In this document: positions 5,408 through 57,966 of the stretch, one piece after another | Position numbering within the stretch: the first letter of the stretch is position 1 | Layout of the letters: each line of letters starts with the position of its first letter | NCBI RefSeq assembly: GCF_009791395.1 | Contig: NZ_WSZK01000030.1 | Location: forward strand, 1 to 64,000 | Origin: Halomarina oriensis | GTDB taxonomy: Archaea; Halobacteriota; Halobacteria; Halobacteriales; Haloarculaceae | Direction: 5' to 3' | DNA length: 64,000 nucleotides | Position numbers and translations under genes: made by a program | Notes under the pieces: model-generated | Told to the model about the DNA's origin: nothing | What the model saw: the letters and a program-made list of their open reading frames with translations, nothing else | Database searches by the model: none

Positions 5408-5894
5408 ACCCACACGCTCGGCCGGCCCGACTCGACAGAAAGACAGCCTCGCGGACGTCGTCGAGCTACTGCTCGACAAGGGAATCGTCATCAACGCCGA
5501 CATCGCGGTGTCCGTCGGCGAGACGGAACTGCTCGGCGTCCACATCCGGGCGGCCATCGCCTCCTTCGAGACGGCCGCACAGTACGGCCTCCAGTTCCCC
5601 GACGGAACCGACGCCCAGCGCGTCCAGGAGGCCGCCGGCGTCGAACCGCTTGAGGAGGGCGAGGACGTCGGCGATGCGGCCCCCATCTCGGTCCGCGGTC
5701 CCCGAGGAGGCGCCGGCGAGCGACCGAGAGCGACCGGCGACGAAGACGAGGGCGAGGGTGACCTGACCGACGCCGTCGAGGACGTCGGTGACGCCGCCGA
5801 GGACGCGGTGGACGGCGACGACGAGGCGGCCGACAGTGCGGATACCGACGAAACCGCGGAAGGGGACGCCCCCGAGACGGGGGACGACGGATGA
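5400..5894 (+). CDS. gvpJ: gas vesicle protein GvpJ
   Basis: A 164-residue GvpA-family minor protein. Residues 15-60 are the GvpA-like core ([20 protein letters not shown], then a [14 protein letters not shown] helix), and residues 95-164 are a long acidic tail absent from GvpA and GvpM. Gene position and the tail favour GvpJ, which is thought to help nucleate or shape the vesicle tip. The ATG at 5400 lies inside the previous gene (8-nt overlap). Confidence 0.9.
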
Positions 5895-7014: not shown

Positions 7015-7249
7015 GGACGAGGACGACGCTATCGTCGACCTGCTCGACTGCATCCTCCGGGACGGCGTCATCCTGCAGGCGGACGTCATCATCAGCGTCG
7101 CGGAGGTACCGCTGGTCGGCCTCCAGTTGCGTGCCGCACTCGCCGGGATGGACACCATGACGCGCTACGGCTTGCTCACCGACTGGGACGAGGAGACGCG
7201 AACGCGGGCCATCGCGGACGAGCGAGCGCCACCGACACGACTCGAGTAG
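7001..7249 (+). CDS. gvpM: gas vesicle protein GvpM
   Basis: An 82-residue GvpA-family minor protein (AIVDLLDCILRDGVILQADV, then VPLVGLQLRAALAGMDTM). It lacks the acidic tail of GvpJ, and together with its place at the operon end this indicates GvpM. The ATG at 7001 overlaps gvpL by 14 nt. No gvpN, gvpC, gvpD or gvpE follows; the next gene encodes a ribosomal protein. Confidence 0.9.
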   Translation: MEPRRDEDDAIVDLLDCILRDGVILQADVIISVAEVPLVGLQLRAALAGMDTMTRYGLLTDWDEETRTRAIADERAPPTRLE

Positions 7250-53199: not shown

Positions 53200-54441
53200 T
53201 CACTCGCCGCGCAGGAACGCGACGACGGCCGCGGGGTCGGCCGACAGTCCGCCGCCCTGGGCGACGGTCGGCGATCCGCCACCGCCCCCACCGAACTGGT
53301 CGGTCACGTCGTCGACCACGGCGCTCGCGTCGTGACCGTCGCTCGTCGCCACCGCGAGCGAGGCGTCCGCGACGAGGGCGACCACGTCCACGCCGTCGCC
53401 CGCGAGGTCCCGTGCGTGGTCGGCCAGCGCGTTCGCGTCGAGGCCGTCGACGGTGCCGACGACCCACGTCACGCCGTCGCGCTCGAAGGACTCCTCCCGG
53501 AGGTCGGCGAGTCGTGTGCCGACGACTTCCTCGCGGAGCGCGTCTCGTTCGGCGGCGGCCTCGTCCCGCGCGGCCCGGAGACGGTCGATGCCTTCGGGGA
53601 CGTCCTCGACCGGCGTCCCGAGGTCACGGGCGGCGGTCAGGGTCGCTCGCTTCTCGGTCGCTCGCCGGTCGATGGCGGCCGGGCCGACGGCGAACTCGAC
53701 GCGCGTCAGTCCCTCGCCGGGGTTCGAGCGGCCGAGGACCGTGACGGGGCCGAGTTCGCGCGTGTTCGAGACGTGCGTCCCGCCACAGGCGGCGACGTCC
53801 CAGTCGCCGGCGTCGTTCACGACCGTCTCCGTGGTCGTCTCGTCCGAACGCTCGCTCGCGCCGACGGTGACGAGTCGGACCGTCCCGCCGCCGAGGCCCT
53901 CCTCGGTCTTCGTGTTGAACGCCACGTCCGGCCGCGAGAGTGCCTCGTCTCTCGGGACCTCCGTCCACGAGACCGGGCGTGACTCCCAGACGACCCGGTT
54001 GACCAGTCGCTCCAGTTCGACCAGCGCCTCGTCGTCGATGTCGCTCGTCGTCGTGAAGTCGACCCGGACCTTCTCGGTGGTGATGCCGAACCCACCGTAG
54101 CCCAACTCCTCGAACAGACGCCGGCCCGCCCCGTAGAGGACGTGGCTGGCGGTGTGTGCTCGCATACAGTACGTCCGGAACCGCTCGTCGACGTCGCAGA
54201 CGACCTCGGTCCCCACCTCGACGGCGTCGCCGCCACCCTCCCCGAGGTGATGGACGACCGTCCCGTCGCGTCGCTCGACGTGCTTGACGGGGACGCCCGC
54301 TACGGTCCCACGGTCCGCCGGTTGGCCGCCGCCTTCGGGGTAGAAGTACGATTCCGAGAGAACGACGCTGTCGCCGTCGACTCGCTCGACACGTGCCTCG
54401 AACGTCGTGACCGACGGCTCCGCCGCGGCGAGTGATGACAT
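53200..54441 (-). CDS. alanyl-tRNA editing protein AlaX with DHHA1 domain
   Basis: A 413-residue AlaX-L-type protein that deacylates mischarged Ser- or Gly-tRNA(Ala). The zinc site is visible as HTASHVL (about 94-100) and CGGTHVSNTRELG (about 217). The C-terminal DHHA1 domain ends with the glycine-rich DQFGGGGGGSPTVAQGGG. It lacks the aminoacylation domain of AlaRS. The ATG at 54441 precedes the conserved ARVERVDGDSVVLSESYFYP. Confidence 0.92.
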   Translation of the reverse strand: MSSLAAAEPSVTTFEARVERVDGDSVVLSESYFYPEGGGQPADRGTVAGVPVKHVERRDGTVVHHLGEGGGDAVEVGTEVVCDVDERFRTYCMRAHTASHVLYGAGRRLFEELGYGGFGITTEKVRVDFTTTSDIDDEALVELERLVNRVVWESRPVSWTEVPRDEALSRPDVAFNTKTEEGLGGGTVRLVTVGASERSDETTTETVVNDAGDWDVAACGGTHVSNTRELGPVTVLGRSNPGEGLTRVEFAVGPAAIDRRATEKRATLTAARDLGTPVEDVPEGIDRLRAARDEAAAERDALREEVVGTRLADLREESFERDGVTWVVGTVDGLDANALADHARDLAGDGVDVVALVADASLAVATSDGHDASAVVDDVTDQFGGGGGGSPTVAQGGGLSADPAAVVAFLRGE

Positions 54442-54533
54442 ACCAGCCGAACGGACCGCCCTCACGAAGGGCGTTGCGGTCGCGCCGCTCGCCGGCAGGT
54501 GGTCGAGCGGGAGCGGGGCCGGGACCGGGTGGC

Positions 54534-55052
54534 TCAGTTCTCGGCGAGTCGGACGCCGAGTCGTTCTTCGAGGGCTTCGATGACCGACCCGCCGATGCCG
54601 GCACTGGTGGCCCGGCCCTGTTCGACGGCGACGAGGTCGGCCTCGCGGACGCCGACGTCACCGGCGAGGTCGGCCGTCGAGAGGTCTCGCTCCTCGCGGG
54701 CTTCGACGACGACGTCGCCGTACCCCTTCACGAGATACGGCAGCGGGTCGTCCTCGTAGTCCGCGCCCTCCTCCCAGCGCTTCGAGTCACCCTTCCGAGC
54801 GTCGTCCATGCGCGCCTGTGCCCGGACCGCCTTGAGTTTCCGGTCGCGGTCCTCGTCGCCCGTGGACCGGTCACCGCTTCGGCTGCCACCGCTGCCGCGC
54901 GACTCGCTGCTGCCGTGTCGCTGGCAGTCCGAACAGACCTGGAGGACGGCCCCCTCGACGTTCACGGCTTCGAGTGAGCGTCCTTCGGCACCGCAGAGTT
55001 CGCAGGAGTCGGAGTCCCGCGACCCGACGCCGCCAGTCGAGTACTTCGCCAT
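54534..55052 (-). CDS. multiprotein-bridging factor 1 (aMBF1) HTH protein
   Basis: A 172-residue archaeal MBF1 homologue. The N-terminal zinc ribbon (CELCGAEG and CSDCQRHG) is followed by a Ser/Arg/Asp-rich linker and the HTH_3 domain (KGYGDVVVEAREERDLSTAD, then VREADLVAVEQGRATSAG). Eukaryotic MBF1 bridges TBP and activators and also acts at collided ribosomes. Archaeal MBF1 is thought to act in translation. It is divergent from tRNA-Leu. Confidence 0.92.
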   Translation of the reverse strand: MAKYSTGGVGSRDSDSCELCGAEGRSLEAVNVEGAVLQVCSDCQRHGSSESRGSGGSRSGDRSTGDEDRDRKLKAVRAQARMDDARKGDSKRWEEGADYEDDPLPYLVKGYGDVVVEAREERDLSTADLAGDVGVREADLVAVEQGRATSAGIGGSVIEALEERLGVRLAEN

Positions 55053-55183
55053 ACCCTGGGTTGCGTCCCGGCGCTATTTGAAACGTGCGCTCGTTGACCG
55101 GTCGACCGGAATCGGAACCGGACGACGTGACGGGCGTGCGTAGCGTGGGTCGCCCTCCCACTGGCGACCCCAAACGGAAGGGC

Positions 55184-55192
55184 TTTTAATAC
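55184..55192 (+). promoter_or_regulatory. TATA box of tRNA-Leu
   Basis: TTTTAATAC lies 35-43 nt before the mature tRNA 5' end, the spacing expected for a short-leader precursor tRNA. A perfect 8-bp inverted repeat GGGTCGCC/GGCGACCC lies just upstream at about 55147-55170. Confidence 0.55.
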
Positions 55193-55226
55193 CTGGCCGG
55201 GTACGAGTAAACGCACGACGAAGCGT

Positions 55227-55311
55227 GCGTGGGTAGCCAAGCCAGGCCAACGGCGCAGCGTTGAGGGCGCTGTCCTGTAGAGGTCCGCCGGTTCAAATCC
55301 GGTCCCACGCA
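55227..55311 (+). tRNA. tRNA-Leu (GAG)
   Basis: An 85-nt class II tRNA. Acceptor stem GCGTGGG/CCCACGC has discriminator A, anticodon stem CAGCG/CGCTG encloses loop TTGAGGG (anticodon GAG, reading CTC/CTT Leu codons), and a long variable arm and the T arm CCGG-TTCAAAT-CCGG follow. CCA is not encoded. A lower-G+C region with a cassette-like repeat array starts about 290 nt downstream. No copy of the tRNA 3' end was seen beyond it in the window. Confidence 0.96.
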
Positions 55312-55590
55312 CTGATGGGACTCATCGTCCCCAAAGTGCACGGTGCTCGTCACAGTGACAGCACCCACGCATCATCCTTACCGAAACAACACTGGAGAGC
55401 GACGAGTCCACGGTTCGAACCGCGCGGACGGTCGACTCCTCGAAGCGTGTTCCGTGAGTCGCCTGACGTCGTCGACAGTGGTCGGCTACAACTGTTCCAC
55501 TCAGTCGTGGAACCGACCCGACTCCACGCTGGACCTACTGCGCGTGTATCGGCGGCCACGACTCACTGATTTCATTTCAGTGTTGTCTGT
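55312..55590. other. gene-free interval between tRNA-Leu and the cassette array
   Basis: No convincing gene is visible. The G+C falls along the interval. A perfect 12-bp palindrome CGGTTCGAACCG lies near 55410 and a CACTGA/TCAGTG hairpin at about 55563-55581, just before the first repeat. The latter may be the variable centre of a degenerate first recombination site. Confidence 0.4.
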
Positions 55591-55627
55591 AGTGATACAG
55601 CTGTTAGATTTGTGCCGCGTGTGTATC
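55590..55627 (+). repeat. cassette-array repeat R1 (right half-copy)
   Basis: This copy holds GTAGTGATACAGCT, then box GTTAGAT (55603-55609), an 11-nt spacer TTGTGCCGCGT and a degenerate second box GTGTATC. It aligns with the right ends of R2 and R3, but no left part with GTCTAAC is visible upstream. The stop codon of cassette gene 1 lies inside its right edge. Confidence 0.65.
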
Positions 55628-55919
55628 AGAGGCTATCGCTCGACCGGTTTCTGCCCAGCCCGTGCCTTCGTAGCGCAACGAGAATGAACACGAACCCGAG
55701 CGCTAAGAAGAGCCAGTTAGTCGTGGTGCTGAGTGTCGTTTCGGTCACGTACTCATTCGCAATCAGAAGTTCGACAACGCCTCCAGTAGCGACGCACGCC
55801 CCTGCGATACCCCAGTAGTTGACTTCATCCGTCTTGACGTACTGCCAGAGCCCTCCGACAAGGCAGAGCAGTCCTCCTGCTGCGACGAGCCCGAGCCAGA
55901 TGAGTGCAGAGTCGACCAT
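55626..55919 (-). CDS. cassette gene 1: three-TM membrane protein
   Basis: A 97-residue protein with three TM helices (ALIWLGLVAAGGLLCLVGGL; YWGIAGACVATGGVVELLIA; NWLFLALGFVFILVALRR) and a short basic tail. No family is recognised. Codon use and G+C are lower than in flanking chromosomal genes, suggesting acquisition. The ATG at 55919 follows a CGATAAAC box about 31-36 nt upstream, so the gene carries its own promoter. It lies between repeats R1 and R2. Confidence 0.65.
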   Translation of the reverse strand: MVDSALIWLGLVAAGGLLCLVGGLWQYVKTDEVNYWGIAGACVATGGVVELLIANEYVTETTLSTTTNWLFLALGFVFILVALRRHGLGRNRSSDSL

Positions 55920-55965
55920 CGTGGATAGAGTAGATGTTGACTGGTAGATGTTTATCGCTTCGGGT

Positions 55966-56071
55966 GATGGACTCACGCTCTCTGTCTAACAAAACCGGCA
56001 ATCGGTGCGAGTGGTTTCTTTCACGACGGTTCGCGGTGACGCAGCTGTTAGACTCGTGCCGCAAGTCTAAC
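55966..56071 (+). repeat. cassette-array repeat R2 (full copy, attC-like)
   Basis: A 106-bp composite repeat with four 7-bp boxes: GATGGAC (degenerate), 11-nt spacer, GTCTAAC (55984-55990), variable centre, GTTAGAC (56047-56053), 11-nt spacer, GTCTAAC (56065-56071). From the second to the third box is 70 bp, starting RYYYAAC and ending GTTRRRY as in integron attC sites. The last two boxes form a perfect 9-bp inverted repeat (CTGTTAGAC/GTCTAACAG). Confidence 0.75.
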
Positions 56072-56133
56072 AGCGAGGTGGCCGTATCGAGACGGAGTGA
56101 TAGTTTAATATCATGTGGCTTGTAGTGGATTCT

Positions 56134-56301
56134 ATGTCCGATAGGGAACCAGAGCGCAACAACCCGCTTTCCCCGTACTTCCCATCGAGAGTGCCATCAA
56201 TACCGGGGAATGCTCGCCGATGGTTCGTAGTGCTGATGGTCGTGATTCTCTTTGGGGGTATGGTCCTGAGCCTCGCATTCTCACTTCTCGGGAGTGTGTA
56301 A
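56134..56301 (+). CDS. cassette gene 2: single-TM small protein
   Basis: A 55-residue protein: a polar Pro/Asn/Arg-rich start (REPERNNPLSPYFPSRVPSI) followed by one TM helix (WFVVLMVVILFGGMVLSLAF). The ATG at 56134 was preferred because a TTTAATA box lies about 28 nt upstream. An in-frame ATG at 56113 would give 62 residues but sits too close to the box. It runs opposite to its two neighbours and lies between repeats R2 and R3. No family recognised. Confidence 0.6.
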   Translation: MSDREPERNNPLSPYFPSRVPSIPGNARRWFVVLMVVILFGGMVLSLAFSLLGSV

Positions 56302-56401
56302 GACACGCTCTGCGTCTAACAATTCCGGCAAACGCTGAACGGCATTATTTCCGGGACGAATCGTAGTGATTCAGCTGTTATATGCGTGCCGCGAGTCTAC
56401 C
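56298..56401 (+). repeat. cassette-array repeat R3 (full copy, attC-like)
   Basis: Boxes: GTAAGAC, 9-nt spacer, GTCTAAC (56314-56320), variable centre, GTTATAT (56377-56383, one mismatch to GTTRRRY), 11-nt spacer, GTCTACC (56395-56401). The second-to-third box span is again exactly 70 bp. Outer parts match R2 and R4 (AATTCCGGCAAACG; GTAGTGATTCAGCTGTTA; GTGCCGC), while the centre differs and contains GAATC/GATTC. Gene 2 ends at its left edge. Confidence 0.72.
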
Positions 56402-56422
56402 AGTGGCGGAGTGGCTTTCGAC

Positions 56423-56911
56423 CTATGTATATTCCTCTGCGAAGCGGACGTCTGTTGGTGAGTCAACCCGAATGACGACATTGAGCAGACCACTTCCTGA
56501 TTGCGTCTCAAAGGCATAGGCCGCGGAAGAACCACCGCTGAGGCGGACGAATACCTGATACTCCGTCGGCTCGTCGAGGAGTGAAAACACATCGGTAATC
56601 TCGTCACGGTCGTCTGGGCCAACACGGAAATCACGCTCAAGTAGAATCTCTTGTGCTGACTGAGGCGTGGTTGCGGTCAGAGTACGTGGGAGGACGTTCG
56701 ACCTCGGCTCGCCGTTGACTCTCGTGAGAATGACAGTAAGGTCTCGTTCTGACGTCGTCTCGTTCTCTACTACAATGCCACTACTGGTCGGCACGAAGCG
56801 AGTGCCCGGGCTGTTCGTTTCGCCGGTCAATGCCGAGCACCCCGCAACCGACAAGCTGGCTACAACAAGGCAGCTCTGAAGGAACGTTCGACGGGAACCA
56901 ATCGGGGACAT
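56423..56911 (-). CDS. cassette gene 3: Tat lipoprotein
   Basis: A 162-residue protein with a twin-arginine signal and lipobox (RRTFLQSCLVVASLSVAGC), then a beta-sandwich-like domain (SGIVVENETTSERDLTVILT, later DEPTEYQVFVRLSGGSSAAY). The export signal indicates a haloarchaeal surface lipoprotein. The composition is less G+C-rich than the chromosome. The ATG at 56911 precedes the RR motif; an upstream ATG would add a non-signal extension. It lies between R3 and R4. Role unknown. Confidence 0.68.
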   Translation of the reverse strand: MSPIGSRRTFLQSCLVVASLSVAGCSALTGETNSPGTRFVPTSSGIVVENETTSERDLTVILTRVNGEPRSNVLPRTLTATTPQSAQEILLERDFRVGPDDRDEITDVFSLLDEPTEYQVFVRLSGGSSAAYAFETQSGSGLLNVVIRVDSPTDVRFAEEYT

Positions 56912-56972
56912 ACGTTCAGTCGAAAGACAATTCAGCACAAGTACTTTGTCCAGCTACCAAGCGGCTCGTGTT

Positions 56973-57018
56973 GTTAGACCCACGCTCTCTGTCTAACAAT
57001 TCCGGTAAACGATGCAGC
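56973..57018 (+). repeat. cassette-array repeat R4 (left half-copy)
   Basis: GTTAGAC (56973-56979), 11-nt spacer CCACGCTCTCT, GTCTAAC (56991-56997), then AATTCCGGTAAACGATG as in R3. No matching GTTRRRY right end follows before the next gene. Together with R1 it would make one complete repeat. A CAGCG/CGCTG stem follows at about 57015-57033. Confidence 0.65.
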
Positions 57019-57162: not shown

Positions 57163-57966
57163 TTATCCGGCGAACTCGGCGAGGTGGTCGTTGATCTTCT
57201 CCGTCTCGTCGGTGACCAGTCCGTGGCCGCTGTTCTCGAAGCGGACGAGTTCGGAGTCCGCGATACCGTCGTGGAGCACCTCGGCCGTGATCTCGAAGGG
57301 CGTAATCTCGTCGTGGACGCCGTGACAGATGAGCGTCGGCACGTCGATGTCGGCCATGTCGGGTCGCAGGTCCTCGTCACGGAACGTCTTCGCGGACTCG
57401 ATGGTCGCCTGCGGCGAGGCGTCCCCGCCGATGCCTTCGAGCCAGCGTTTGGTCTCCTCGCTGACCTCGGTGTGGAACAGCATGTCCGTGAACTGTGACA
57501 GCATCGCGGGGCGGTCCTCGCGCGCGCCGTCGATGAGCGGGTTGACCTCCGACTCGTCGAGTCCCTGCGGGAAGTCGGGTTTCTCGGTGAGACACGGACT
57601 CGCCGCGGCGAGGAGTGCGAGGCGCTCGACGTGCGCGCCGTCGTGACGGCTCATGTAGTGGGTAGCGATGCCCCCACCCATCGAGAACCCGACGAGGGTC
57701 ACGTCCTCCACGTCGAGGTCGTCGAGGACGGCCCGGACGTCGTCGGCGAACATGTCGTAGCTGTACTCGCTCCAGGGCTTGTCCGACTGGCCGTAGCCCC
57801 GGAGGTCGACCCCGATACACCGGTAGCCCCGGTCGACGAGGTCGGTGAACTGCTGTTCGTACATCCGGTGACTGAGGGGCCACCCGTGCAGGAAGACGAT
57901 AGGCTCGCCCTCGCCCCAGTCCCGAACGAACAGTTCCACGTCGTCGTCGACGGATACTCGTGGCAT
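57163..57966 (-). CDS. alpha/beta hydrolase (non-haem haloperoxidase-like)
   Basis: A 267-residue alpha/beta hydrolase of the chloroperoxidase/esterase group. Features are VFLHGWPLSHRMYEQQ, then CIGVDLRGYGQSDKPWSEYS, the nucleophile elbow GFSMGGG (Ser), acid in CHGVHDEITPFEI and the terminal His in NSGHGLVTDET. G+C returns to the chromosomal norm, so it marks the right border of the cassette-like island. Natural substrate unknown. Confidence 0.9.
   Translation of the reverse strand: MPRVSVDDDVELFVRDWGEGEPIVFLHGWPLSHRMYEQQFTDLVDRGYRCIGVDLRGYGQSDKPWSEYSYDMFADDVRAVLDDLDVEDVTLVGFSMGGGIATHYMSRHDGAHVERLALLAAASPCLTEKPDFPQGLDESEVNPLIDGAREDRPAMLSQFTDMLFHTEVSEETKRWLEGIGGDASPQATIESAKTFRDEDLRPDMADIDVPTLICHGVHDEITPFEITAEVLHDGIADSELVRFENSGHGLVTDETEKINDHLAEFAG

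Follow-up and report, generated by a model that had tools for sequence, protein, structure and literature searches.

Which described systems come closest to small genes boxed by short recombination sites in a haloarchaeal chromosome? The dif (p-dif) modules of Acinetobacter recombine at matching spacers, alternate between C and D inner-arm classes, and use the host recombinases XerC/XerD (PMC13141974). Integrons have been surveyed across archaea, and the text of that survey mentions neither Halobacteria nor haloarchaea (PMC9668308). In the halovirus PhiCh1, the recombinase ORF35 lies on an invertible segment, and by inversion the ends of two tail-fibre genes are exchanged (PMC4284463). Finally, the SMR-A elements of Haloquadratum are about 110 bp long, carry ITRs, and insert into palindromes without target duplication; together with the PATE elements they are described as transposase-free repeats of enigmatic mobilisation (PMC3119063). 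In the open-licence literature, we found no earlier description in haloarchaea of the system reported below, which appears to be an archaeal equivalent, so far undescribed, of the gene-cassette systems of bacteria. The window, by which we mean the whole 64,000-nucleotide stretch that was analysed, comes from a 4.07-Mb Halomarina genome (G000). Judging from sequence comparisons, it probably contains an integrase-less part of a gene-cassette system of haloarchaea, in which an Int1-like recombinase would exchange DNA at paired a and b spacers.

Architecture of the Window Array

Three small genes occupy positions 55602-56998 of the window, each boxed by a b site and an inversely oriented a site (Table 1). 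Read from the outer to the inner arm, the b site is TGTTAGACnc-GTGCCGC-gaGTSTATCA and the a site is TGTTAGACag-AGAGCGT-ggGTCTATCA; both are inverted repeats of 28-29 bp with an 11-7-11, dif-like layout. The array runs b1, gene 1, a1, a 54-bp core, b2, gene 2, a2, a second 54-bp core, b3, gene 3, and a3. With a position-weight matrix (PWM), its six sites scored 27-45 bits, vs. a maximum of 15.9 bits in 20 order-2 Markov windows. Because sites a2 and b3 have decayed, the array may be inactive.

A preliminary description of this DNA had reported three small genes separated by four copies (R1-R4) of a composite repeat and had likened the full copies to the attC sites of integrons. The repeats and genes are real, and the box-to-box distances of 70 bp are exact (55984-56053 and 56314-56383). 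It was also right that R1 and R4 are not full copies: R1 consists of a core-right and the b site at 55602, and R4 of the a site at 56971 and a core-left. The RYYYAAC and GTTRRRY boxes are likewise present, but each forms one arm of a site of 28-29 bp, an inverted repeat whose 7-bp spacer is conserved. The 70-bp "attC" is in reality the a-core-b junction of neighbouring cassettes, made up of the 54-bp core and the two outer arms that face this core.

Table 1. Features of the window array and its neighbours, followed by the integrase genes found beside related sites elsewhere in the same genome
Feature	Position	Strand	Remarks
tRNA-Leu(GAG)	55227..55312	+	directly left of the insertion; not part of the system
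Outer flank of b site 1	55570-55601		resembles core-right (...GTGATACAGC)
b site 1	55602..55629	+	28-mer TGTTAGAT TT GTGCCGC GT GTGTATCAG; spacer 55612-55618; PWM 41 bits
Cassette gene 1	55626..55976	-	small membrane protein; 97 aa from ATG at 55919; ORF of 116 aa from GTG
a site 1	55964..55991	-	spacer ACGCTCT 55975-55981; PWM 45 bits
Core 1	55992..56045	.	54 bp; core-left AAACCGGCAATCG..., core-right ...GCGGTGACGCAGC; a1 + core 1 + b2 = R2
b site 2	56046..56073	+	spacer 56056-56062; arms CTGTTAGACTC / AAGTCTAACAG, one mismatch from full complementarity
Cassette gene 2	56113..56301	+	single-pass membrane protein, 62 aa
a site 2	56294..56321	-	inner arm degenerate; spacer 56305-56311; PWM 28 bits
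Core 2	56322..56375	.	54 bp; a2 + core 2 + b3 = R3
b site 3	56376..56403	+	outer arm degenerate, TGTTATAT; spacer 56386-56392
Cassette gene 3	56423..56938	-	predicted lipoprotein; 162 aa from ATG at 56911; lipobox VAGC
a site 3	56971..56998	-	followed by core-left half (AATTCCGGTAAACGATGC) to about 57017, the right end of the array; PWM 45 bits
Alpha/beta hydrolase	57163-57966	-	beside the array, inside the segment absent from relatives
Integrase, intact, 271 aa	G000 C2, L020:5006-5821		beside sites
Integrase, frameshifted copy	G000 C26		beside sites
Integrase remnant	G000 C11		beside sites

Distribution of the Site Family

How far does this site family extend? Across G000 it recurs with 45 BLAST matches and 63 covariance-model matches. 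The same covariance model gave 86 matches in G007 (Halomarina rubra ZS-47-S), 69 in G006, 26 in G001, 14 in G005, 2 in G002, 1 in G003, and none in G004, all of them Halomarina; beyond the genus, it matched in only two other genomes of the GTDB family. A position-weight scan of the 1.36 Mb surrounding the matches recovered 414 sites, while reversed-sequence controls yielded 0-7 across the thresholds tried. Every facing pair in Halomarina (124/124, within 3 kb) consists of one b and one a site, oriented b...a, and the a-core-b composites have discrete core lengths of about -2 to 0, 10-12, or 53-55 bp. Where the core is about zero, the outer arms overlap (GTCTATCGATAGAC; L131:9721-9774, L131:11506-11559, L129:7903, and L140:10423). 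Halobium salinum, which belongs to a different haloarchaeal family, carries the same system with the outer arm CTCCTAGAG and unchanged spacers.

Nearly all of the genomes compared are drafts, and several contigs terminate at sites. The G000 contigs C8, C13, and C23 end within a composite site (L018:11565-11680, L009:9855-9970, and L023:8165-8279, respectively); near-identical copies have therefore probably been collapsed, and the real cassette total is likely to be higher. On G000 contig C26, upstream of the frameshifted integrase, a b site and its outer flank are duplicated in tandem (69 bp; L019:3369-3479), giving two direct-repeat b sites with a tiny module between them.

Cassettes Move as Units Bounded by Spacers

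Similarity between homologous cassettes that lie in different surroundings runs from the b spacer to the a spacer and is lost beyond. A cassette shared by G006 and G001 has 34 mismatches in 375 bp (91% identical) inside, vs. flanks that are 25-40% identical; one shared by G000 and G007 has 0 mismatches in 232 bp; and between G000 and G006 the last base of ACGCTCT marks the end of identity. Within Halobium salinum, one cassette occurs in two copies with 0/252 mismatches (L162/L168), and a second is duplicated as a 351-bp perfect run in copies 0.84 Mb apart (L171/L175), with divergence immediately outside; this run, the clearest case, reaches 2 bp past one spacer at its start and 1 bp past the other at its end. 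A homologue of cassette gene 1 sits in a cassette elsewhere in Halomarina rubra (L046:7190-7665; 66.5% nucleotide identity, b to b). Shared-cassette identity thus spans spacer to spacer, which places the crossovers inside the sites, at the spacer, as expected of dif modules. The earlier proposal of a gene-cassette array belonging to a site-specific recombination system is borne out by this spacer-bounded identity in unrelated places, which indicates that individual cassettes are mobile. The crossovers do not fall at the single G^TTRRRY point of integrons; they fall at the dif-like spacers, on both sides of the gene. Together, these DNA comparisons show what appears to be a swapping of cassettes between genome positions and species across haloarchaea.

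Comparison with related genomes, which the preliminary description had proposed, revealed that the window array is itself missing from two close relatives. The orthologous tRNA-Leu locus of G006 and G007 retains both flanks (54404-55402 and 58276 onward), and segment 55403..58275, with the array and an alpha/beta hydrolase, is absent from between them. We did not detect the window array at the orthologous locus in the remaining five Halomarina genomes. On the far side of the window hydrolase, no site was found. In G006, a 70%-identical relative of this hydrolase is carried as cassette cargo (L131:9931-10731). In some cassettes (L014, L028, L102, and L104) the orientation is reversed with respect to the outer flanks, and the spacer then stays with the cargo.

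The Associated Recombinase

Which enzyme might act at these sites? The window array has no integrase gene of its own. A genome search for a tyrosine recombinase, suggested in the preliminary description, turned up integrase genes adjoining sister arrays elsewhere in G000, where three of the PF00589 matches directly adjoin sites (Table 1). The layout outward b, gene, core-right, outward b is common to G000, G007, G006 (gene at L061:1420-2262), and Halobium (gene at L162:5938-6735). A core-right and b directly after the integrase could mark an attI-type position, yet outward sites flank the gene on both sides. The tyrosine recombinase encoded there is short, is slightly extended at its N terminus, and has the expected R, K, HxxR, W, and Y motifs (assigned by motif as GMRAGE, PKT, PHGLRA, GWEK, and ETYLNG). 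Its best characterised relative is PhiCh1 Int1, an established DNA invertase, with 45% identity over 218 aa. It matches only the PF00589 profile and, below threshold, a XerA model; the integron-integrase model gave no match, and no PDB relative was found by sequence. The suggestion of a CALIN-like cluster is partly supported: the locus is integrase-less, but an integron is not supported, and the recombinase is PhiCh1 Int1-like and not IntI.

The wider integrase family occurs in 72 of 392 Halobacteriales genomes, spread over 39 of 95 genera, and every matching genome in a phylum-wide sample belongs to this same order. Named plasmids also carry it, among them those of Haloprofundus halobius, Haloarcula marina, and Natrinema species. 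An IMG/VR scan returned no relatives at the sensitivity used; annotated haloviruses nonetheless carry the family. No close integrase was detectable in G001 and G005, although sites are present there. The integrase clade tracks the site arm: TTAGAC and CTAGAG occur with integrases scoring >500 bits, and TGCTGAATA with relatives scoring <265 bits. In Halobium salinum, an integrase element is bounded by 88-bp inverted repeats that are 88% complementary (L162:4491-4578 and 7027-7114), as if it had terminal inverted repeats of its own.

A Second Site Type

A site with TGCTGAATA arms lies near 18 of 26 further, more distant members of the integrase family. Its outer arm faces the gene in 16 of the 26, and in 11 of these 16 one end is of the a' type and the opposite end of the b' type. 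The exact composite TATTCAGCA-N28-58-TGCTGAATA was found in 31 genomes from 20 of the 95 haloarchaeal genera sampled, nearly always as N39, and a reversed-pattern control returned 0; among open-licence papers, the TGCTGAATA motif had no match. The 287 sites of this type in the fetched loci fall into two spacer types that differ in their outer flanks. Facing pairs are heterotypic in 85 of 89 cases, as are back-to-back pairs in 76 of 80, the latter with 39-bp cores. Since the TGCTGAATA type repeats both the heterotypic pairs and the cores, the two-spacer architecture is general.

TGCTGAACTCACCCTCTACGTTCAGCA-like sites were observed beside the CTCCTAGAG-type array of Halobium salinum (L162:4945-4976 and 5790-5821); a single genome can thus hold both site types, possibly nested. 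Near some members of the integrase family we found neither type (L184-L187, L189, L202, L204, and L209), and in G036 a CGTGCTTCTGG-palindrome lies 74 bp upstream of a family member (L212:9606), which suggests that further site types may exist.

Cargo

What do the cassettes carry? The median cargo protein is 154 aa long (123 Halomarina cassettes with an ORF). A lipobox signal is present in 30 of 117 cargo proteins of 60 aa or longer, vs. 14 of 877 background ORFs (16-fold; Fisher p about 1e-19), and 48 further cargo proteins have a transmembrane segment. Enzymes are few (NUDIX, glyoxalase, hydrolases, SDR, and aminotransferase) and are joined by BAT/HTH_10 regulators. Cassette G+C is 55.6%, vs. 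60-65% in the surrounding loci. Relative to the b-to-a direction, 76 cargo genes run with and 47 (38%) against; with both orientations represented, a shared promoter is unlikely. A TATA-box was seen upstream of 9 of 123 cargo ORFs, whose start codons are uncertain. Defence islands were considered as the main cargo and rejected, as PADLOC gave two weak matches among 88 cargo proteins.

Proposed Mechanism and Alternative Explanations

Inner-arm (cargo) cassettes alternate with outer-arm modules, each of the latter comprising an integrase gene plus ends or, far oftener, the ends alone as an empty core (39 bp in the TGCTGAATA type; about 0, 11, or 54 bp here). We take this core to be, most plausibly, an integrase module of which only the ends are left. 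We propose that the short Int1-like tyrosine recombinase binds the arms, pairs like sites, and exchanges strands within the 7-bp spacer. Acting on two b or two a sites in direct orientation, it would excise or insert a cassette-plus-core circle, and a second exchange at the other site would replace the cargo alone, a reaction that engineers have built as recombinase-mediated cassette exchange. Between inversely oriented a and b sites the outcome would be the flipping of a module, as with PhiCh1 Int1, and the single polarity of the array would stem from having two unlike spacers. That the spacer is kept with the cargo in inverted cassettes is not explained by a simple, symmetric exchange of 7 bp between unlike spacers. 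The sequences themselves show the anatomy of the sites, the alternation of modules, the transfer of cassettes from spacer to spacer, and a recombinase gene beside the sites; we infer that the Int1-like protein is the acting enzyme and that the steps follow this order, and the shuffling of small exported proteins may be beneficial.

Could a true integron or CALIN, in which an IntI-type integrase recombines attC-bearing cassettes in folded, single-stranded form, explain the array equally well? The head-to-tail array of small genes, the RYYYAAC...GTTRRRY boxes 70 bp apart, and the site half directly after an integrase gene all fit. Folded as single strands, however, the two 70-bp sites stay near shuffle level (z -0.7 to -1.8), the attC-like pairing of outer boxes covaries weakly and is marginal against shuffles, and RNAalifold yields no consensus hairpin for 38 sites (5 pairs, -2.7 kcal/mol). 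With a conserved primary sequence of the sites, crossovers at both gene ends, 38% of the cassette genes facing the other way, and an Int1-like recombinase outside the integron-integrase model, we regard an integron as extremely improbable. We also judge it very improbable that the a-core-b composites are dispersed 110-bp mobile repeats resembling SMR-A, with the genes as passive flanks. Such repeats would match the composites in size (about 110 bp) and in their inverted ends, yet homology tracks the gene and breaks at the spacers, and isolated cassettes have b and a ends without a full composite (L162/L168, L171/L175, L014, L028, and L102). Random insertion, moreover, should produce homotypic facing pairs, whereas all 124 are heterotypic. 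The preliminary description had named repeat copies at many places without flanking cassettes as the mark of an ordinary dispersed repeat; copies are indeed numerous, but they bound cassettes.

A further alternative retains the same cassettes and assigns their recombination to XerA, the resolvase that acts at dif on the chromosome; the Int1-like genes would then be passengers. The window array lacks an integrase, and in G001 and G005 the sites occur in genomes where no close Int1-like gene was detected, so that the host's XerA or some distant enzyme could take this role; the 11-7-11, dif-like site geometry and the use of host XerCD by Acinetobacter dif modules (PMC13141974) point the same way. 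It is difficult to reconcile with passengers, however, that Int1-like genes lie at fixed short distances between sites in many genera, and that integrase clade and site arm sequence change together. We therefore consider XerA an unlikely agent, and favour exchange at paired a/b spacers by an Int1-like recombinase.

The chances seem to us evenly balanced that this amounts to a natural, class-wide platform for recombinase-mediated cassette exchange in haloarchaea, in which every cargo gene is boxed by two heterospecific inverse sites and the swapping, flipping, and arraying of the cargo fall to an Int1-type recombinase that is itself boxed and is independent of integrons and Xer modules. If so, haloarchaea, known for rampant gene exchange, would have a dedicated gene-cassette engine; many orphan membrane proteins and lipoproteins would be explained as exchangeable cargo; an unstudied family of short archaeal recombinases would gain a function; and two-site cassette exchange, otherwise built by engineers, would have a natural version. 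Halomarina rubra, Halobium salinum, and Haloprofundus halobius can be cultured, which makes direct testing possible.

Relation to Described Systems

Our best reading is that the system belongs to neither family: its design comes nearest to that of the Acinetobacter dif modules, and its function resembles that of integrons. Like the dif modules, it places genes between inversely oriented two-arm sites (28 bp) in two alternating module classes, with recombination between matching spacers, inversions, and module shuffling. It differs in its 11-7-11 rather than 11-6-11 sites and in having only two kinds of spacer, fixed to the cassette ends; in an Int1-like enzyme inside the outer module in place of host XerC/XerD; in an outer module that has mostly shrunk to a core of at most 54 bp; in its location on archaeal chromosomes and plasmids; and in its arms, TGTTAGAC / GTCTATCA, which are unlike ATTTCGTATAA / TTATGTTAAAT (Table 1 of PMC13141974). 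With integrons and CALINs it shares long arrays of small, mostly unknown genes, many arrays without an integrase, and a tyrosine recombinase beside what may be an entry-type site. In contrast to these, each haloarchaeal cassette has two double-strand-type sites instead of one folded attC, there is no IntI, and genes run in both orientations.

The Int1 proteins of PhiCh1, PhiH1, and ChaoS9 are homologous short tyrosine recombinases, also encoded within a segment bounded by inverse repeats. The phages, however, flip one segment to exchange tail-fibre ends and have no cassettes, and their 30-bp repeats (ATGGACGCGGT...) are unlike a and b. The SMR-A and PATE elements resemble the composites in length (about 110 bp) and inverted ends, whereas SMR-A, as described, has neither cargo nor recombinase. 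On the basis of size and end structure only, the features by which HqIRS42/43/55 were compared, the SMR-A repeats of Haloquadratum may be an earlier sighting of these composites.
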